Position numbers and translations under genes: made by a program
Source of the DNA: Hyphomonadaceae bacterium
GTDB taxonomy: Bacteria > Pseudomonadota > Alphaproteobacteria > Caulobacterales > Hyphomonadaceae
NCBI GenBank assembly: GCA_022760335.1
Contig: JALEGE010000190.1
Span: forward strand, 1-55,003
Direction: 5' to 3'
DNA length: 55,003 bases
Shown here: piece after piece, positions 21,608 to 32,136 of the stretch
Layout of the letters: each line of letters opens with the position of its first letter
Position numbering within the stretch: the first letter of the stretch is position 1
Notes under the pieces: generated by a model
Database searches by the model: none
Told to the model about the DNA's origin: nothing
Seen by the model: the letters and a program-made list of their open reading frames with translations, nothing else

Positions 21608-21967
21608 TCAAACGGCGATCAGTTTGCGCAATTCCTTGTCGAGTTGATCATAGTCGACGGGTTTCGACAGTACACGGTAATCTATCATGTCTTCTGGCAG
21701 GGCACCGGAATCGTTTCCTGAAAGAAAAAGTGTGGGCACGCCGCGTGTCTGGAGCTCTCGGGCCACGGGAAAGGACTTTTGGTTTCCGAGATTCATATCC
21801 AGAACTGCTGCGCTCAAACCTGTTGTTCTGGCCACCTCAAGCGCGGTTTCCAGGTCAGCAGCTGGGCCGATAGGGGCATAGCCACGGTCGAGCAATTCCT
21901 GTTCGACATCGAGGGCAATAAGATAATCGTCTTCCACGATCAGTATGCGGGGGCGCTCAAGCGTCAT
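21608..21967 (-). CDS. Single-domain response regulator receiver
   Basis: 119 residues consisting of one receiver domain and no output domain. Key residues are present: acidic pocket E12/D13/D14, phosphoacceptor D57 (VLDMNLG), S83 (FLSGND) and K102 (SKPVDY). The ATG overlaps the stop of the upstream kinase in ATGA, so kinase and receiver are made together. Such receivers beside HWE kinases act as phosphate sinks or relay intermediates (family knowledge). The output protein is not in the window. Confidence 0.92.
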   Translation of the reverse strand: MTLERPRILIVEDDYLIALDVEQELLDRGYAPIGPAADLETALEVARTTGLSAAVLDMNLGNQKSFPVARELQTRGVPTLFLSGNDSGALPEDMIDYRVLSKPVDYDQLDKELRKLIAV

Positions 21968-23733
21968 TGTGCGGCGCTTAGGGGAAGCCTGAACCGGGCA
22001 TCAAGTCCTGATTGAGCGTAGCTGATAGAAGTGGTCCCGCCGAGCCCGTGTGACAAACTTTGCTCTATCAGGAGGCTGCCAAACCCGCGCTTTTTGGGGG
22101 GCATGACAGGCGGCCCGCCTGACTCCTTCCAGATGATTTCGATGCACTTGATGCCATCGTCTCCCAAGCTATCGCCCCAGGAGATATGCACCTTGCCCTT
22201 TGGTGTTGAGAGAGCGCCATATTTGGCGGCGTTGGTGGCCATTTCATGTAGCACCAGGCCAAAAGCGTGAGCGGCCTCTCCGCCCAGAACCAGCGGCTTG
22301 CCGCAGATTTCCAGGCTTGTGCCATCATCGCGCGTCAGCGCCCGGATCTGGGTTTCGATCAGGCTGCGCAGATTGACCTTGGTATGGTTGGTGGCGACCA
22401 ATAACTCATGGCATCGCGCAATGGCCTGCAAACGCCCCCGATAGGCGGTCTGGAAACTCTCGAAATCTGACGAGGTGCGCATGGTGTGCCCGGCCATGGC
22501 CTGGACCGTCGCGAGGGTGTTCTTGACTCGGTGACTGAGCTCCTGGAGCAGCATCTCGCGGTGTTTCTCCGCTCTCTTGCGCTCCGTGATGTCGACGCCG
22601 GAAGGGATGAGATCGATGATCTCGCCACTGTCATCATAGTTTGGGGCAAGCTGGAAATCGATATGCATGGGGACATTGTTCGCCACCCGGATTTCAGCGT
22701 CGAAGCGAACCGTTTCGCCCTCTGCTGCGCGCCGAACAGCTTCGCGAATGAGGTTTTTGCTCTCCTCGCTATAGTTCCACCAAAAACAGTCCCAGAAAGG
22801 TTTGCCGATGACATCCTCTCGGGTCAGGTCCGCCGCTGCCAGCGCAGGTTCATTGGCAACCAACAAAGTGCCGTCCAGGGACAAGACCCCGATGAAAGCG
22901 ACCACATTGTTGAGCACGCGGCGCAGGCGCTCTTCGCTGTGGCGCAAAGCCGTGATGTCGGCAAAGGAGACCGCGAGTCCGTTGCCCGCGCGGGCGGCTG
23001 TCGTATGAAAATGTGCCTTTATGCCATCATGGTCGTATCGAAATTCATTCTGCCAGGTTTGACCGGTTTCAATCACCTGGACATATGCATCGAACAGACC
23101 TTCTTCCCGGTTTCCAGGCATTTCCTCCAAAAGGAGCTTGCCGTTCAGGTCGTCTGCGCTTCGCCCGACGATCCGTTCTGCCGCGGCGTTGATATAGGTC
23201 CAGCGCAGATCGCAAATCGTGCCAGATTTATCGCGAACAGCTTCGAAGGTCATGAACCCGTCCGGGCTGGTTTCCTGTACGGCGCGAAACCGCGCTTCAC
23301 TTTCCTCCAGCGCCATGTGCATACGCTTGAATTCGGAGATATCTTCCAAAACAGAAACGAAGTGGACAAATTCCCCGTTATTGGTGCGAACAGCCGCGAC
23401 TGTAAGATTGGCCCAGACGGTGTGTCCGGCCTTGTGAAAATAGCGCTTTTGCATCTTGTAGCGCTCAAGATCGCCGCTCAGCACCTTCCCGGCGAGATCG
23501 ACATCGGTGTTCACGTCATCAGGATGGGTAAGATCCTGGAATGTGAACTCCATCAACTCTCTCTCGGTATAGCCGAGCATCTCACAGACATGCGTGTTGA
23601 CGCGAAGCCAGCGACCATCCGCGCCGACATGAGCAATGCCGATAGGTGCAGCATGGAAGGTCTGCTCCCATGCGCGTAAGCCGCCGGTCATGTCGGTCGG
23701 GACAGGCTTGGCCGCTTGAGCGAGATCGGTCAT
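21964..23733 (-). CDS. HWE-family sensor histidine kinase with three PAS domains
   Basis: About 589 residues, cytosolic, without membrane helices. Three PAS/PAC units occur in tandem: about 25-140 (FHAAPIGIAHVGADGRW... VLEDISEFKR), about 145-265 (EARFRAVQETSPDGF... SFADITALRHSEERL) and about 268-385 (NNVVAFIGVLSLDG... GVDITERKRAEK). The kinase core has the HWE box LLQELSHRVKNTLATVQ with the phosphorylated histidine, LHEMATNAAKYGAL as the N-box, and the trailing W-x-E (IIWKESGG). No GxNCRFLQ motif occurs, so none of the PAS domains is a LOV photosensor. The start at 23733 is chosen on PAS layout; an ATG at 23787 would add 18 residues. The signal sensed is unknown. Confidence 0.9.
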   Translation of the reverse strand: MTDLAQAAKPVPTDMTGGLRAWEQTFHAAPIGIAHVGADGRWLRVNTHVCEMLGYTERELMEFTFQDLTHPDDVNTDVDLAGKVLSGDLERYKMQKRYFHKAGHTVWANLTVAAVRTNNGEFVHFVSVLEDISEFKRMHMALEESEARFRAVQETSPDGFMTFEAVRDKSGTICDLRWTYINAAAERIVGRSADDLNGKLLLEEMPGNREEGLFDAYVQVIETGQTWQNEFRYDHDGIKAHFHTTAARAGNGLAVSFADITALRHSEERLRRVLNNVVAFIGVLSLDGTLLVANEPALAAADLTREDVIGKPFWDCFWWNYSEESKNLIREAVRRAAEGETVRFDAEIRVANNVPMHIDFQLAPNYDDSGEIIDLIPSGVDITERKRAEKHREMLLQELSHRVKNTLATVQAMAGHTMRTSSDFESFQTAYRGRLQAIARCHELLVATNHTKVNLRSLIETQIRALTRDDGTSLEICGKPLVLGGEAAHAFGLVLHEMATNAAKYGALSTPKGKVHISWGDSLGDDGIKCIEIIWKESGGPPVMPPKKRGFGSLLIEQSLSHGLGGTTSISYAQSGLDARFRLPLSAAQ

Positions 23734-23858
23734 GATTTGAGTCCGCACTGAACAGGTCCCAAGAAGCTGCCCTTCACGCATGAACAATTGGTTTCACATA
23801 TAGGCCTTTGGGGACGCTTTTTGCAGCACTTACAGTTTTCATATTGGCGCAGAAAGCA

Positions 23859-23923: not shown

Positions 23924-26137
23924 TTACCAGATGCGGATACGCTCTTCCTGCGGCAAGTAGAGTTCATCTTCTTCTGTTACGTCGAAAGCCTCGTACCATT
24001 CATCGAAATTGCGCACGATGCCGTTGACGCGGAACTCGGCCGGTGAGTGCGGGTCGGTCAGCAATTGCTGGCGCTTGGCTTCGTCGCGATATTTCGACCG
24101 CCAGACCTGGGCCCAGGCCATGAAGAAGCGCTGATCGCCGGTCAGGCCGTCAATCACCGGGGCCTGTTCGGCTTCACTGACCGTGCCGTCGCCATCATTA
24201 TCCAGGCTGAGCTGGTAGGCGCGATAAGCCAGCGAGAGTCCACCAAGGTCGCCGATATTCTCGCCCAGGGTAAGGCGGCCATTGACACACGGATCGTCCT
24301 CGCCGAGTGGGCAATACTGGTTGTACTGATCGACCAATGCGGTGGTCAGCTCCTCAAACGCGTCGCGATCTTCTTCGGTCCACCAGTTGGCAAGCACGCC
24401 ATGGCCGTCGAATTTCGAGCCCTGATCATCAAAGCCATGCCCGATTTCGTGGCCGATGACGCCGCCAATGGCGCCATAGTTCACGGCCGGGTCGGCAGAG
24501 ATGTTGAAGAAAGGCGGCTGCAGGATGGCGGCCGGGAAGACGATCTCGTTATAGCTTGGATTGTAGTAGGCATTGACCGTTTGCGGGGTCATGAACCATT
24601 CGTCCCGGTCCGGTTCTTCCTCAAGGCGGGCGATGTTGTCGGCCAGTTCCCAGCGTCCAGCATTCATGGCGTTCTCGAAGGCACTGTCGCCGATTTCGAG
24701 CGTGTCATAGCTTTCGAACGCTTCCGGATAGCCGATCTTCGGGTTGAACATGTCCAGCTTTTCGACAGCCTTCAGGCGCGTCTCGGGGCCCATCCATTCC
24801 AGATCTTCCAGATTGGCGTGCATGGCGCTGCGCAGATTGGCGACGAGCTGGTCCATCGCCGCCTTGTTCTCCGGCGGGAAGTGACGCTCGACATAGACCG
24901 CTGCAACCGCCTCGCCGAGCGTACCCTGAACTGTTGAGACCCCGCGCTTCCAACGTGGGCGCTGTTCCGGCTGGCCACGCAGAACTGTTCCATAAAAGGC
25001 GAAATTCGCGGCATCGATCTCAGCTGGCAATACGCTGGCATGGTCTGACAGGAAGTGGGCCGTCATATAGGCTTTCCAGGTGTCGAGATCGGCCGTCTGG
25101 GCGATCTCGAACACGGCCGGCATGCCGGGGCCAAGTTTTTCAGCGTCTTCCTCGGACATGCCAACTTCGTCCAGTTCTTCCTGGGTCGGCGGCACTTCGG
25201 CCACAAGAAACTCATTCTGTCCGGCAAGACCTATGGTTTCCAAAGCTGTATCGAGCGGGAAGTCGCCAGCAAAGGCGCGCAGCTCGTCGAGGGAGACCTT
25301 GTTATAGGTCAGCTCCGGATTGCGGCTGAGGGCGCGATCCCAGTCGGCCTTGGCGATCTCGGTTTCTAGCGCCAGGACATCGCCGGCCTTGGCCTCGGCA
25401 TCCTCGTAGCCGGCCTGAGTGAGCAGGAAGGTCAAAAGGCCGAGATAATCCTCGCGAATTGAGACCGACTTTTCATCGTCCTTGAAATAGTATTCGCGGT
25501 CGGGCAGGCCGAGTCCACCAATGCTCATCTGAGGGATGTAGACATTTGGATCCTTGTCATCGACCCAGACAAAGGCGTTGATCGGCGACGCGAAACCGGA
25601 TGTTGCAAAAAGAGTTGCGAGGTCTTCGCGCGTCTCCATGGCCGCAATCATCTCAAGATAGGGCTGGGCCGGGGCGAGGCCGGCGGCTTCGATGTTGTCG
25701 GTGTCCAGATAGGCCGAATAGAGTGCGGCCACCTTGCCTTCGGGTGTCTCGGTTGCAGGCGAGTCCGCAGCCAGATCTTCAATGATGAACCGGGTCTGCT
25801 GCTCGGACTTTTCACGCAAAAGATCAAAGGCACCATAGCGGACCTTGTCGGCTGGAAGCTCGAATGTGTCGAACCAGCCGCCATTCACATGCATGAAGAA
25901 ATTATCGCCCGCCGTGACATCCTCACTCATCGCGCCGGTATCAATGCCCCAGTCGCCCCAATAATCTGGCGAGGTGGTTTCAACCTCATGGGCGGGGGCC
26001 TCAACCATTTCGGTTCGGGTCGGGGCGGTCTCAACCGTCGGCGCTGGTTCTGCAAGGTCCGTGATTTCGGTTTCCGGGACGCTCGTGCATGCCGCGAGCA
26101 GGGCGATGCCAGCGGCGCCCATCAAAAGATGTCTCAT
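23924..26137 (-). CDS. M13-family (neprilysin-like) metallopeptidase, lipoprotein, with EF-hand-like loop
   Basis: 737 residues. The N-terminus MRHLLMGAAGIALLAAC is a lipoprotein signal with lipobox LAAC, so the enzyme should be anchored in the cell envelope. Zinc ligands are H563 and H567 in HEIGH with catalytic E564, plus E626 in GENIGDLGG (D630 also conserved). The C-terminal ERIRIW resembles the conserved CRVW end of neprilysin. M13 enzymes cut short peptides. Unusually, residues 646-657 (DNDGDGTVSEAE) form a textbook EF-hand calcium loop in the spot between YRAYQ and the PVIDGLTGDQ helix, where relatives usually have a short linker. GGAGAGG precedes the ATG. It follows the efflux operon by 79 bp and may be partly cotranscribed. 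Confidence 0.93.
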   Translation of the reverse strand: MRHLLMGAAGIALLAACTSVPETEITDLAEPAPTVETAPTRTEMVEAPAHEVETTSPDYWGDWGIDTGAMSEDVTAGDNFFMHVNGGWFDTFELPADKVRYGAFDLLREKSEQQTRFIIEDLAADSPATETPEGKVAALYSAYLDTDNIEAAGLAPAQPYLEMIAAMETREDLATLFATSGFASPINAFVWVDDKDPNVYIPQMSIGGLGLPDREYYFKDDEKSVSIREDYLGLLTFLLTQAGYEDAEAKAGDVLALETEIAKADWDRALSRNPELTYNKVSLDELRAFAGDFPLDTALETIGLAGQNEFLVAEVPPTQEELDEVGMSEEDAEKLGPGMPAVFEIAQTADLDTWKAYMTAHFLSDHASVLPAEIDAANFAFYGTVLRGQPEQRPRWKRGVSTVQGTLGEAVAAVYVERHFPPENKAAMDQLVANLRSAMHANLEDLEWMGPETRLKAVEKLDMFNPKIGYPEAFESYDTLEIGDSAFENAMNAGRWELADNIARLEEEPDRDEWFMTPQTVNAYYNPSYNEIVFPAAILQPPFFNISADPAVNYGAIGGVIGHEIGHGFDDQGSKFDGHGVLANWWTEEDRDAFEELTTALVDQYNQYCPLGEDDPCVNGRLTLGENIGDLGGLSLAYRAYQLSLDNDGDGTVSEAEQAPVIDGLTGDQRFFMAWAQVWRSKYRDEAKRQQLLTDPHSPAEFRVNGIVRNFDEWYEAFDVTEEDELYLPQEERIRIW

Positions 26138-26216: not shown

Positions 26217-29200
26217 CTATTCGGCCGGCTTCAGGTCGCCATGAGCGCTGGTGCCGATCAGCTCTTCCTCGTCGATGGTCGCATGGCCGGAATAGGTTTC
26301 CCCGATCTGGCGGAAGGGGCGGCCATTCCAGGACCAGTTGAAGATCCGGCCAACCTCGACACCAATGGCATAAAGTGCCGGCACGAGCAGCAGCGACACG
26401 AACAGGGCGAAGGTCACCGCCGATCCAAGCGACACCACCATCGGCTTCAGGAATTGAGCCCCCACCGAGCGCTCAGCGATCAGCGGCAGCACGCCGACAA
26501 AAGTGGTCACCGAGGTCAACAGGATCGGGCGGAAGCGTGAGACCCCGCCATCCACCACTGCCTGCAGGGCGCCGACACCTTCATCTCGCCGCCGGTTGAT
26601 GAAATCCACCAGAACGAGGTTGTCATTGATCACGACGCCCCCAGCGGCCGCGATCCCGAAGAAGGAAAACATGGCGAGGGGCACCCCGGAGATGAGGTGG
26701 CCGAACACCGCGCCGGCATAAGCGAAAGGAACAGCCGTCAGCAGAAGGGCCGGCTGGCTATAAGAGCGGAAGGCGATGGCCAGAAGAATATACATCGCCC
26801 CAAGAGCAATAAAGAAGAACCTCATAAGCTCGGCAAAGAACTCCTGCTCGGCCTCATATCCACCTGAGCTTTGGCGAGAAACAGTGGGAAAGCGTTCGGC
26901 AAAGCCGGGCCAATAATTGGCCTCCATATCAGCGATGATCTGTCCGCGGACATCGTCGGTAAGCTCCGCGCGAACCGTCACCGAGCGTGTCCGGTCGCGC
27001 CGGATGATGACATTGATACCGGGCGCGAACTCGAAATCGGCCACCTGGTTGACCGGGATTTGCCGACCATCAGATGTGCGAATGCGCAGATTGCCCAGGG
27101 AATCGAGGTTCCGTCGTGTGTCTTCAGGCAAACGAACACGAACTTCCACATCGTCACCCTCACGTGGCAAACGATAGACGAGTTCACCGAAATAAGCCTG
27201 GCGGATCTGGCTGGTCACATCCGCAAGGGTCACGCCTAGCGATTCTGCGCCTGGTTTCAGGGTGACGCGAATCTCATCGGCCGCTGACGATAGATTGTCG
27301 CCGATATCATAGGTCGTGGAATAGGTCGCCAACTGGCCTTTCACATCTTCGGCCGCAGCGCGCAGGAGATCGAGATCTTCATTGTTCAGGGAGAAGCGAA
27401 TGCCACTTTCATCCTGGTTGAAGGTCGCGGTTACCTCGATTTCCTCGGCATCCTGAATGGGGCCGACAAGCTCACGGAAGCGGTTGGAGATCTCTGTTGA
27501 GGAGAGCGTTTCCGGTCGCACCTCGGGAGGTGTCAGTCCAATCCAGGCCTGCACGCGGCGTCCTGAGGCGACAACTGAGCTGTCGCGAATGAGTCCATTG
27601 ATCTCAGGATAGGTCTCCCGGCTTTCGACATCCATCAGGTCGATTCCGTTCTGGACCTGTTGTTGAACTTGCTCCGTCCTTGTGAATGGCGTGCCGTCTG
27701 GCAGTTCCACACTCACCTGGATCATGTCGGCTTCGATCTTGGGCATGAAGTTGAAGGGGACATAATTGTTCCCGACAAGCTGTGTCGCCCACAAGAACAA
27801 TACGATGAAGAATGCCATCGTGGCGTACCGGAACTTCACAGCCAGTTCGAGTATTGGGCGATAGATATGATCGGCAAACCAGAGCAGTGAGTCCGCGATA
27901 GACCGCTGGACTTTCAGGATCGAGCCGCCAGGGCCGTCAAAGCGCTGGGGCTTCAGGTGAGCCAGGTGTGCTGGAAGGATCAGCATGCTCTCAATCAGGG
28001 AGAATGTGAGCGCGGCAACCACCACGAAGGTGATCTGCTCGGTAAAGGAGCGCACCGGGCCAGTCAGGAAGGCCCAGGGCAGGAAGGCGATAATGGTGGT
28101 CAAAACGCCGAAGATCACAGGCTTGAGCACCATCTGTGTGCCGATGATCGAAGCATCCAGACCCTGGCGCCGGCCGCTCTCGACTTCCTTGTGAATATTC
28201 TCACCGACGATAATGGCATCGTCCACAATCACGCCGATGACCAGCAAGACGGCAAAAAGGGAGAGAATGTTCAGTGAGACGCCGAACAAGGGCAGCAAAA
28301 ATACGCCCCCCGCAAAAGCGGTGAAAATGCCAATCGTCACCCAAAAGGCCACAATCGGGCGCAGGAAGAGTACGAGAACGATCAGAACCAGCACACCACC
28401 CAACAAGGCGGATTGGCCGATTGTTTCCATCCGGGCCTTGAAGGCGTCTGAATTGTCCCAAAGGATATTGATCTTCAAGGCCTCAGGCAGAATGCCGGAG
28501 GCGGGATCGTTCGCGCGTTCGATATAGTCCTTGAACCCGTCCGTATAGTCGACAATCTGCATATTGTCCGGCGCCACCACCATGACGAAGGCGGCAGGCT
28601 GGCCATTATGTTGGGCGCGCAATTCCTCATCTACAAAGCCATCAACAACATCTGCGATATCGCGGAGCCGAATGACCGCTCCCTCAGGCGTTTGCGTGAC
28701 GACGATACGCTCAAATTGAGCGGCAGTATCGGCCTGCTCCCGCGCCTGGATGCTGACATTGCCAGTATCTGTACGCACGCGGCCACCAGAGGCATTCAGT
28801 GCGGTTTCCCGAATAGCCTGGGCCACTTGTGAGAAGGTAAGATTATACTGGCGCAGGGTCTCTTCCGTCACCTCGATAGAGACCTGCTCGCCAAGCGTGC
28901 CGTTCACAATTGCGAGTTGCCCACCGCTCATTTCGGCAATGTCGTCGCGGACTTCATCCGCGATCCGTTTTAGCTCGCGCGGACTGGCCTCACCATAGAT
29001 AGCCATCCCGAAATACCAGTCACGATCCTCCCACTGGGTGATCTGTGGCCGGAAGGCCGATTGTGGGAAATTGTTGATCTGGTTCACCCGGCGCTCGATG
29101 TCCCGGATGAACTTGTCCATGTTGATATCGTCGCGGCCGCGAATATTGACCGTGGCGCCGCCCTCATAGGCGATGGAGGTGATGCGGTCGATCCCATCCA

Positions 29201-29423
29201 GATCGGCGATCGCCTCTTCAATCCGAACAACCAGTTGTTCCTCGGTTTCTGCCGGCGATGCGCCCGACCAGGCGACGGAGACGCTGGCCCCGGCCACGGG
29301 CACCACTGGGAAGATCTCGCGCTCAAGACTGAAATACGCAAAGATGCCGCCAATAAACGCGACGGCCATCAGCAGGTTTGCCGCAATGGCATTGCGGGCA
29401 AACCAGGCAACTATCCCATTCAT
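26217..29423 (-). CDS. RND-family efflux permease
   Basis: 1068 residues with the RND layout: helix 1, a large periplasmic loop, helices 2-7, a second loop, helices 8-12. It exports drugs or other amphiphiles using proton influx. The proton-relay aspartates of helix 4 are visible in VIGVIVDDAIIVGENIHKE. Helix 10 has GGVVINDNLVLVDFINRRR in place of the lysine-bearing AcrB version; this N-D variant occurs in a recognised subgroup of RND pumps, so substrates may differ from AcrB. AGGAG precedes the ATG, which overlaps the stop of the fusion-protein gene in ATGA. The operon order is outer-membrane factor, fusion protein, pump. Confidence 0.95.
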   Translation of the reverse strand: MNGIVAWFARNAIAANLLMAVAFIGGIFAYFSLEREIFPVVPVAGASVSVAWSGASPAETEEQLVVRIEEAIADLDGIDRITSIAYEGGATVNIRGRDDINMDKFIRDIERRVNQINNFPQSAFRPQITQWEDRDWYFGMAIYGEASPRELKRIADEVRDDIAEMSGGQLAIVNGTLGEQVSIEVTEETLRQYNLTFSQVAQAIRETALNASGGRVRTDTGNVSIQAREQADTAAQFERIVVTQTPEGAVIRLRDIADVVDGFVDEELRAQHNGQPAAFVMVVAPDNMQIVDYTDGFKDYIERANDPASGILPEALKINILWDNSDAFKARMETIGQSALLGGVLVLIVLVLFLRPIVAFWVTIGIFTAFAGGVFLLPLFGVSLNILSLFAVLLVIGVIVDDAIIVGENIHKEVESGRRQGLDASIIGTQMVLKPVIFGVLTTIIAFLPWAFLTGPVRSFTEQITFVVVAALTFSLIESMLILPAHLAHLKPQRFDGPGGSILKVQRSIADSLLWFADHIYRPILELAVKFRYATMAFFIVLFLWATQLVGNNYVPFNFMPKIEADMIQVSVELPDGTPFTRTEQVQQQVQNGIDLMDVESRETYPEINGLIRDSSVVASGRRVQAWIGLTPPEVRPETLSSTEISNRFRELVGPIQDAEEIEVTATFNQDESGIRFSLNNEDLDLLRAAAEDVKGQLATYSTTYDIGDNLSSAADEIRVTLKPGAESLGVTLADVTSQIRQAYFGELVYRLPREGDDVEVRVRLPEDTRRNLDSLGNLRIRTSDGRQIPVNQVADFEFAPGINVIIRRDRTRSVTVRAELTDDVRGQIIADMEANYWPGFAERFPTVSRQSSGGYEAEQEFFAELMRFFFIALGAMYILLAIAFRSYSQPALLLTAVPFAYAGAVFGHLISGVPLAMFSFFGIAAAGGVVINDNLVLVDFINRRRDEGVGALQAVVDGGVSRFRPILLTSVTTFVGVLPLIAERSVGAQFLKPMVVSLGSAVTFALFVSLLLVPALYAIGVEVGRIFNWSWNGRPFRQIGETYSGHATIDEEELIGTSAHGDLKPAE

Positions 29424-30685
29424 TGCACGGCTCCTTCTGCGTTACTCTCTCCGCTGGCCTCGGCCACGGCTTCACCATCATCGTCAGTTTCAGGCTCGTG
29501 GCTGATAATGGATCCATCAGGCTGGCGTTCCAGAACCTTGATGCGCATTCCATCGAAAGCAGCCTGGATCGGTGAAACGACGGCCAGTTCGCCGGCGGCA
29601 ACACCACGGGTGAGATAGGCACCCTCATCGCTGGAATAGACCACATCCACCTGGCGGATGCTGAGCGTGCCTTCCTTGGGGTTGCCGATATAGATTTCGT
29701 TCTCACCGCGCAGGGCTGAGCGAGGGACGATCATGACATTTTCCAGTGTGGCACCCTGAATTGAGGCATTCACAAACAGGCCAGGCGCCATCGGCGCACC
29801 ATTGTCGGCGCCTTCGCCATACGGATCGATCAGTTCCGCGATGACATCAAGTTGGCGCGAGCGCGGATCAATTGAAGCGGCGGTGCGGGTCACCTGGCCA
29901 TTCCACTCTCGCATCTGGCCTGCGACACGAGCGGTGAACGTCACCGTCGGGCCAGGGTTTTCCTCGGATGCCGCAAAGGCGAGCGGCAGTCCAATCCGGC
30001 CCAGCTCGGCATCAGAAATTGGCAAGCTCACTTCGACAATATCGGTCGAGAAGATGCTTCCAAGAGACTGCCCCGGGCTGGCATATTGGCCGATATCCAC
30101 ATCACGCTCGCGGACGCGGCCGGTGAAGGGGGCGCGCACAGCCGTCCGGCGCAAATTCAGTTCGGCTTCGGCAAGTTGAGCCTTGGCGCTGTCCAGCGCT
30201 GCCCGGGCTTGTGCCAGTTGTGGTTCGCGGCGTGCAAGCGGACTTGCGTCGGTAATGCCGAGATCTTCCAGATCCTGAAGTGCAAGCTCAGCTTCGGCCT
30301 GCTCGCGCGCCAGCGCTTGCTCGGCGGAAGCCACGCTGGAGCGGGCACGCGTCACGGCAAGTTCGTAATCCTCAGACTCCAGGCGAACGAGCACCTGGCC
30401 TTCACGGATAAAACCGCCATCGATGAAGTCCGGCGACAGGGAGGCGACCCGACCACCGATCTGGGGCGACACAATAATCTCGCGTTTTGGCGCCACCTCG
30501 CCCTGTGCGTCGACGGTCAGGGTGAACCGGCCTTCTATGATAGGCTCGGCAAAGACTGCCAGGCCCGCCGGAACCTCATCGGTTTCTTCCGGAACGGGTT
30601 TGAAGGCTTGCAGAGCCGCAAAACCGCCGCCGCCAAGGAGCAGGAGGATCAGGATGGGCAGGGCAATGGCGAGGATACGACTCAT
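29420..30685 (-). CDS. RND efflux periplasmic adaptor (membrane fusion protein, HlyD/AcrA family)
   Basis: 421 residues. An N-terminal membrane anchor (about 4-24, ILAIALPILILLLLGGGG) is followed by a split lipoyl domain (GEVAPKREIIVSPQIGGRV and TAVRAPFTGRVRERDVDIGQ), a coiled-coil hairpin between them (about 112-180, alanine/glutamate rich), a beta-barrel and a membrane-proximal domain. An acidic tail ends the protein (HEPETDDDGEAV). It joins the pump to the outer-membrane channel. It overlaps both neighbours by 4 bp, so stoichiometric coupled expression is likely. Confidence 0.94.
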   Translation of the reverse strand: MSRILAIALPILILLLLGGGGFAALQAFKPVPEETDEVPAGLAVFAEPIIEGRFTLTVDAQGEVAPKREIIVSPQIGGRVASLSPDFIDGGFIREGQVLVRLESEDYELAVTRARSSVASAEQALAREQAEAELALQDLEDLGITDASPLARREPQLAQARAALDSAKAQLAEAELNLRRTAVRAPFTGRVRERDVDIGQYASPGQSLGSIFSTDIVEVSLPISDAELGRIGLPLAFAASEENPGPTVTFTARVAGQMREWNGQVTRTAASIDPRSRQLDVIAELIDPYGEGADNGAPMAPGLFVNASIQGATLENVMIVPRSALRGENEIYIGNPKEGTLSIRQVDVVYSSDEGAYLTRGVAAGELAVVSPIQAAFDGMRIKVLERQPDGSIISHEPETDDDGEAVAEASGESNAEGAVQ

Positions 30686-32136
30686 GGGGTGGGGCTCCCG
30701 CCGGGGCTGCCGGCATTCGCTGAGGGTTGAGTAAGGCCGGGCCCATCAGGGCCGCCGCCTAAGGCAAGATAGTACTGAACGCGGTTTGTTGCACGGGCTG
30801 TTCGTGCGCTGACAAGTGCGGATTCTGCATTTAGCCTGCGCGTTTGGGCGTCAATCAGGTTAAAAATGGTCACTGTGCCGGCCTGATATTGCCGTTCGGC
30901 CAGGTCTTCAGCGAAGGCGGCTTCTTGTAGCGCGCGCTTTTGGGCGTTTTCCTGAGTGGCGAGATAGCCGTCTGCGGCGAGGGCATCTTCCACTTCGCGC
31001 CAGGCGACCAGCACTGTGGACGCATAGCTGGCAAGAGAGATTTCCACACGCTCCAGAAAGGCTTCGGCGCGTGCCGACAACTGTCCACCCGCATAAAGCG
31101 GCTGGGTCAGGTTTGCCAAAGCATTGGCCGCGATAAAGGCCGGGTCGAAAGTTTTCGACAGATCATCGGAACTGGTCGACAGGCTGGCGGTCACATTCAG
31201 GCTTGGGAACAATGCAAGACGTGCCTGTTCGGCCCGCAGACCGGCCTGGACCACGCGTGCCTCCGCACTTGCAATGTCCGGCCGGCGCGCGAGCAGGCGC
31301 GTGGGGCTGGAGATCGCGCCGATCGGGGTCATTGCGGGCAGATTCGCCGGCGCGGCGATCTCGGCCGCGGGATAGCGACCAAGCAGGACTTCCAGACGCC
31401 GTGCAGCTTCGCCGACCGCTTGGCGCCGCGCGGCGATCGAGGCTTCCGCGCCGGCAAGGGCGCTGCGGGCGAGCCGCACATCCAGTGCGGTGGCAAGGCC
31501 GCGCGAAAAGCGTCGCTCAGTCAGTTCGGTGGTGCGTGAGCGCGCTTCAAGTGTTGCCTGAGCGACGCTCTCCTGGGCCACTGCGGCGTTTAAATTGATC
31601 CAGGCTATTGCGGTCTGACCGGCAATAGAGAGCTGGGCGGCTGCGAGATCGGCTTCGGCAATGGCCTGGTCGGCCTCAACAATGTCGACCCCGGCAGCCA
31701 GGCGCCCCCACAAATCGGCTTCCCAGCTGGCGTTCAGGCCGAGACCGTATGTAGCGCTATCATTGGTTACCGCATCGCCATTGGCATCTTCTGCCACAGA
31801 GCGCCGGCCGCCTGTGGAGGCCGATCCGGAAATGAAGGGCAGCAGCGAGCCGCGCTGGGCGCGAGCATCGGCCGCCGCGGCGCGCAGCGTAGCGAGCTGC
31901 GCAGCCAAGGTGTAATTGTGCTCAAGTGCTTCGCCGACAAGCGATTGCATCACCGGATCGTTGAAGTTGTTGAGCCATGGACCTTCTTCGGCGACACCAA
32001 CAATACCTGCGGCCGCCCAGACCTGCGGCGCATTGGGCGCAACGGGGACGGCATCAATTTGTCCGGTCTGAAAAGCCTCCCAGGAGGCGCAACCGGTAAG
32101 CATGAGTGTGCCAACGAGGGCGGTTTGTCGCTTCAT
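30682..32136 (-). CDS. RND efflux outer-membrane lipoprotein, NodT/OprM family
   Basis: 484 residues. The N-terminus MKRQTALVGTLMLTGCAS is a lipoprotein signal with lipobox LTGC, which is typical of NodT/OprM rather than TolC. Two repeats of the outer-membrane efflux domain follow, with the usual alanine-rich coiled coils (for example QLATLRAAAADARAQRG) and the family box LARRPDIASAEARVVQAGLRAEQARLALFPSLN (quoted to show the RPDI/ARLALFPS core). It forms the outer channel of the pump encoded downstream. It is the first gene of the operon, with two tandem promoter candidates upstream. No adjacent transcriptional repressor is present. Confidence 0.93.
   Translation of the reverse strand: MKRQTALVGTLMLTGCASWEAFQTGQIDAVPVAPNAPQVWAAAGIVGVAEEGPWLNNFNDPVMQSLVGEALEHNYTLAAQLATLRAAAADARAQRGSLLPFISGSASTGGRRSVAEDANGDAVTNDSATYGLGLNASWEADLWGRLAAGVDIVEADQAIAEADLAAAQLSIAGQTAIAWINLNAAVAQESVAQATLEARSRTTELTERRFSRGLATALDVRLARSALAGAEASIAARRQAVGEAARRLEVLLGRYPAAEIAAPANLPAMTPIGAISSPTRLLARRPDIASAEARVVQAGLRAEQARLALFPSLNVTASLSTSSDDLSKTFDPAFIAANALANLTQPLYAGGQLSARAEAFLERVEISLASYASTVLVAWREVEDALAADGYLATQENAQKRALQEAAFAEDLAERQYQAGTVTIFNLIDAQTRRLNAESALVSARTARATNRVQYYLALGGGPDGPGLTQPSANAGSPGGSPTP

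Follow-up and report, generated by a model that had tools for sequence, protein, structure and literature searches.

The window, i.e., the whole stretch of 55,003 nucleotides that was analysed, comes from a Henriciella-like bacterium and contains an intact open reading frame for an M13 zinc endopeptidase, the features of which are listed in Table 1. Both M13 domains are found far above the Pfam cut-offs, Peptidase_M13_N with 348.8 bits (E 6e-104; cut-off 32) and Peptidase_M13 with 249.7 bits (E 3e-74; cut-off 24.5), and the gene is present as a single copy, with one match in its own genome. The zinc site consists of HEIGH (residues 563-567), whose residue roles we take to be those usual for M13 enzymes, and ENIGD (626-630); H563, E564, H567, E626, N627, and D630 are invariant in the 62 aligned rows. 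The nearest PDB sequences are Zmp1 of Mycobacterium tuberculosis (E 1e-154) and PepO enzymes. An AlphaFold2 model built with 62 aligned sequences has a mean pLDDT of 91.3, and a Foldseek search with it gave 19 matches at E <= 0.001, all of which are M13 enzymes or a Haemonchus complex, whose matched chain is named putative zinc metallopeptidase. The model shares fold and zinc site with Zmp1 (3zuk) and PgPepO (9fma), with target-normalised TM-scores of 0.94-0.95 and 38-40% identity. With both domains, the zinc site and a neprilysin-like fold, the peptidase belongs to family M13. The protein start, MRHLLMGAAGIALLAAC, reads as a lipoprotein signal and contains the lipobox LAAC at residues 14-17, in agreement with the envelope-bound location assumed in an earlier reading of this DNA from the sequence alone (hereafter the sequence-only reading), and a lipobox-like pattern is present in 48 of the 51 scorable relatives that bear the loop described below. 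Directly upstream on the same strand lie RND pump genes for an outer-membrane channel, an HlyD-type adaptor and an AcrB-type transporter (26217-32136, minus strand), and the transporter also precedes the peptidase in the compared Henriciella and Hyphomonas loci. A PAS/HWE histidine kinase and a single-domain response regulator are encoded just downstream (21608-23787, minus strand).

Table 1. Positions in the window of the peptidase gene and of the features in its product.
Feature	Position	Strand	Basis
M13 (neprilysin/PepO/Zmp1-like) zinc endopeptidase, 737 aa	23924..26137	-	Pfam PF05649 and PF01431; Zmp1 match
12-residue Dx[DN]xDG...E calcium-type loop, residues 646-657, including a 9-residue insertion relative to loop-less orthologues	24167..24202	-	
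Predicted helix 624-645, with E626 and D630 near its start, ending where the loop begins	24203..24268	-	AlphaFold2
HEIGH, presumed zinc ligands H563 and H567, presumed catalytic E564	24437..24451	-	translation; invariant columns in 62 aligned sequences
Lipobox LAAC, residues 14-17, predicted lipoprotein anchor	26087..26098	-	translation

Residues 646-657 read DNDGDGTVSEAE, and E626, the third zinc ligand within GENIGD, precedes D646 by 20 residues. Sequence and spacing are therefore as given in the sequence-only reading, which had described an exact DxDxDG...E loop at this distance from the zinc ligand and had taken it for an insertion in the peptidase. The latter is confirmed by a 9-residue gap both in Zmp1 and in loop-less relatives, while the loop itself is complete. 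At the same place Zmp1 reads SLNGNPAPVIDGL and the window protein SLDNDGDGTVSEAEQAPVIDGL, a difference of nine residues. Although Zmp1 and PgPepO are alike to the window protein in fold and zinc site, they have 9 residues fewer in the turn that follows the zinc-ligand helix, and no calcium-type loop there; in ECE-1 the site is shorter by 6 residues, and none of the five alignments listed with solved M13 enzymes shows a calcium-type loop at this site. The difference is also found among close relatives. In Henriciella mobilis (L029) the enzyme, with 74-75% identity to the window protein, is loop-less (SLDGEEAPVIDGL), whereas that of Henriciella sp. PW1 (L004), 75% identical to the window protein, bears the loop (SLDANGDGMVSEDEQAPVIDGL), and these two enzymes are 83% identical to each other.

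How common the insert is among bacterial M13 enzymes, a question to be settled by alignment according to the sequence-only reading, was determined in several samples. Among 105 genomes of the family, 102 had an M13 match, and 90 family sequences were read, one per genome, leaving out second copies and 12 matching genomes; the loop is present in 49 of these 90. A further 80 named loci overlap partly with the genes of the family survey, and after 11 duplicate rows had been dropped 159 distinct sequences were obtained, 52 of which have the loop. Seven of the 80 named loci carry it, four titled Henriciella and three titled Porticoccaceae; 73 of the 80 entered the 159-row counts, and the seven left out (L048, L049, L050, L055, L059, L067, and L072) are all without the loop. 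The wider surveys used a strict DNA pattern of fixed spacing, which loops of other spacing escape. With this pattern, 32 of 299 genomes of the order were positive, all of them in the own family (32 of 61), and none of the 238 genomes of the order's other families. In the class it occurred in 2 of 385 genomes, namely the own genome and one with a match in another protein that has a stop codon before the pattern end, and in the phylum in 4 of 398, namely the own genome, two relatives and the same chance match as in the class. Only 35 of the 385 class genomes have an M13 match. Thirty of these matches were read, two of which were already in the own-family set (the window gene, with loop, and L095, without), and the loop is absent from all 28 new loci. 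The M13 enzymes of Maricaulis, Hyphobacterium and Vibrio pelagius (L061, L071, and L245) have a turn that is a few residues longer at this site, without the motif; the one of V. pelagius is plasmid-borne.

Wherever the insert occurs, it has the same place and the same length. Counted from GENxxD to QRFF, rows with the loop have 44 residues; of the 107 loop-less rows, 102 have 35 and the remaining five 36 to 38. All 9-residue inserts are EF-type loops (52/52), and none without the motif is present among the 159 distinct sequences. The 52 insert-bearing rows contain 41 different loop sequences, all of which combine D1, D/N3, D/N5, G6, and E12. D1, G6, and E12 are kept in 52 of 52 and D5 and S9 in 50; position 3 is N in 33 rows and D in the other 19, position 8 is always one of V, I, and L, and position 4 is G in 50, whereas positions 2, 7, 10, and 11 are variable. 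Accordingly, the mean entropy is 0.37 bits for positions 1, 3, 5, 6, 8, 9, and 12, but 1.62 bits for positions 2, 4, 7, 10, and 11. Since synonymous codons differ in the rows compared for this, the constraint acts on the protein. Thus, instead of being poorly conserved among orthologues, which would have spoken against the loop, the ligands are kept wherever the insert occurs, and the Dx[DN]xDG motif with its downstream acidic ligand is conserved among the insert-bearing orthologues. This is the pattern that would be expected of a working calcium loop. A chance origin of the motif is untenable because of this conservation among relatives, and the DNA form of the 12-residue pattern, which occurs once in the window, was found in none of 100 dinucleotide shuffles. 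The own genome contains 14 occurrences of the pattern compared to none of the reversed control, and several of them fall in evident multi-loop EF-hand proteins. Open reading frames with Dx[DN]xDG are located at L206-L207, L208, L210-L213, and L215 of the own genome; by reading of their sequences these include one EF-hand protein with four loops, two with two loops each, and a TonB-receptor-like protein that has just one. A chance or neutral insertion, with no selected role, would agree with the patchy presence of the loop and at least seven changes on the tree (see below). However, 41 different loops that all retain the main ligands make this explanation very improbable.

The 12 residues match the canonical EF-hand pattern D-x-[DN]-x-[DN]-G-x-[ILV]-x-x-x-E, and they are preceded by an entering helix as in calmodulin or calcineurin B. 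This predicted helix (624-645) has 10-residue pLDDT block means of 92-95, and the loop stretch has block means of 92 and 90, so that the loop is also modelled with high confidence. After the loop the model has only one helical turn (655-657), to which the exiting helix is limited, followed by proline 660 and the next helix from residue 667. The model of the loop-less H. mobilis enzyme shows the same elements around the site, i.e., a helix 624-644, then a short turn, and another helix from residue 658. Unlike in a canonical EF-hand, no paired second loop is present in the peptidase and no Pfam EF-hand family matches it, as only the two M13 families were found up to E 10. A PDB search with a 70-aa fragment gave weak matches to glucosidase II beta, calcineurin B and calmodulin (E 0.003-0.09). 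Due to the one-turn exiting helix, the lack of a second loop and the lack of a Pfam match, the site is predicted to be a Dx[DN]xDG site of the helix-loop-turn type, and a full EF-hand is ruled out. Of the EF-hand loop named in the sequence-only reading, the 12-residue loop and the entering helix remain, whereas the exiting helix, the partner loop and the Pfam match do not.

Calcium binding by the linear Dx[DN]xDG motif is described for many contexts, including helix-loop-turn ones, and EF-hands are one of at least twelve families that use it (Rigden et al., 2011; PMC3123361). Neprilysin, M13 and peptidase do not occur in the main text of that article. The loop described here resembles the motif in its DNDGDG, the acidic position 12, the preceding helix, and in being a short insertion in an unrelated enzyme fold. 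It differs in that loop-bearing and loop-less orthologues of the M13 peptidase exist side by side.

From the conserved ligand positions, the insert is very likely a real calcium site. Glutamate at position 12 is a calcium-type ligand, and one Ca2+ would be held by D646, D648, D650, the backbone of residue 652, S654 (directly or via water) and E657. Bound there, the ion would cap the zinc-ligand helix, which carries E626 and D630, at its C-terminal end and make this end and the following surface turn more rigid. Calcium is plentiful outside the cytoplasm, and as the peptidase is a predicted lipoprotein outside the cytoplasm, the site would probably be filled most of the time. We infer calcium binding, occupancy and stabilisation from sequence and model, and it is probable that the insert is a true calcium-binding Dx[DN]xDG...E loop that stabilises the catalytic domain and does not act as a switch.

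The sequence-only reading had also considered that calcium could control the folding or activity of the enzyme. As a switch, the loop would respond to low calcium by unfolding of the turn, a shift of the zinc-ligand helix and lowered activity, so that the peptidase would be active only outside the cell or in calcium-rich water. One continuous predicted helix indeed joins the loop to E626 and D630. However, about 30 angstroms of this helix (calculated from 19 helix residues at 1.5 angstroms) separate the loop from the zinc, and a direct catalytic role is therefore unlikely. Moreover, there is no sign of a calcium change to sense, and close homologues such as the one of H. mobilis have no loop altogether, so that control of activity by calcium is unsupported and the loop is dispensable for the chemistry of the family. 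Stabilisation is favoured because of the distance from the zinc and because the site is probably filled most of the time, and a switch appears quite improbable.

Proteins of marine bacteria often have acidic surface loops, and the insert might be one of these, used for protein contacts or for another cation than calcium. The present experimental record is compatible with this explanation, but the conservation tracks the EF ligand positions and not general acidity: G6 and S9 are kept as well, and positions 10 and 11, which are often acidic, vary. It is thus an unlikely explanation. Results for a comparable loop count to some degree against a structural calcium site. PepX of Lactobacillus helveticus has, like the M13 enzyme, an aspartate-rich calcium loop in the catalytic domain of a peptidase, and there the results reported were mixed: no significant effect of EDTA was seen and one single mutant resembled the wild type, whereas a double mutant was inactive (PMC10536834). 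PepX differs in being an alpha/beta hydrolase with a calcium site seen in the crystal structure, whereas the M13 loop is known from sequence and model. The marine M13 enzyme PepS is described as barely affected by calcium (105% at 2 mM, 95% at 4 mM), and the paper makes no use of the term EF-hand (PMC4701951).

The loop is inherited patchily. On a loop-masked FastTree of the 159 proteins at least seven changes of loop state are needed, five of which are forced by starred branches, and all of them lie within one clade of 102 rows, 52 with and 50 without the loop. As 50 of the 102 rows do without it, any benefit of the loop is not essential. In a subset of 47 rows chosen from the 159 for spread, 25 of them with the loop, at least seven changes are needed as well, four of them forced by starred branches. 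A tree forced to group all loop rows is worse by 754 log-likelihood units (p-AU 4.9e-5), and for these 47 rows the AU test thus rejects that the loop arose only once on the gene tree. Since the loop rows do not form one clade, the site was gained, lost or exchanged several times.

The codon of the serine before the loop is AGY in 50 of the 52 loop rows (TCN in one, another in one), whereas in the 50 loop-less rows of the clade it is TCN in 32, AGY in nine and another in nine. The codon class changes along with the loop in about four of five independent pairs (sign test, median p 0.125). Over the 60 bases to either side of the site, the H. mobilis gene has only loop-less sequences among its eight nearest neighbours. 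In a sliding-window control the loop site of this gene ranks 28th to 58th of 674-694 windows, and that of L094 49th to 104th. Because this control failed to single out the site, local recombination as the cause of the loop-less H. mobilis gene is only suggestive and can be taken as a lead.

Porticoccaceae is a gammaproteobacterial family, and three loci of this title carry loop-bearing peptidase genes. Apart from the peptidase gene and the open reading frames overlapping with it, no open reading frame of these loci matches any of the 21 comparison loci from Hyphomonadaceae and others, and two of the three have neighbours in common, with protein identities of about 92-96%. Provided that the records are titled correctly, this would fit with a transfer of the loop-bearing gene to another class. 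In Henriciella aquimarina (L006, 1680-7202) the transporter is closer to that of L004 (83% identity) than to that of L007 (60%), whereas the peptidase is closer to the one of L007 (68%) than to the one of L004 (59%). Since both identities point to different relatives, another peptidase gene may have taken the place of the original one. More broadly, the complete calcium site could be a small exchangeable module in an orthologous peptidase that comes and goes through short recombination tracts as well as gene transfer across species, also into gammaproteobacteria of the Porticoccaceae; this is a tentative idea that we regard as possible, but doubtful.

No report of a calcium loop in an M13 peptidase was found in the literature on M13/neprilysin, Hyphomonadaceae or Henriciella with EF-hand or calcium. 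The neprilysin-type M13 fold would therefore be a new host for a well-known calcium motif. If the site is indeed an exchangeable module, nature would have provided enzyme pairs with and without it. Natural pairs such as the enzymes of Henriciella sp. PW1 and H. mobilis would differ by a whole calcium site, and pairs of this kind would allow a direct measurement of how gaining a calcium site affects the stability of an enzyme.
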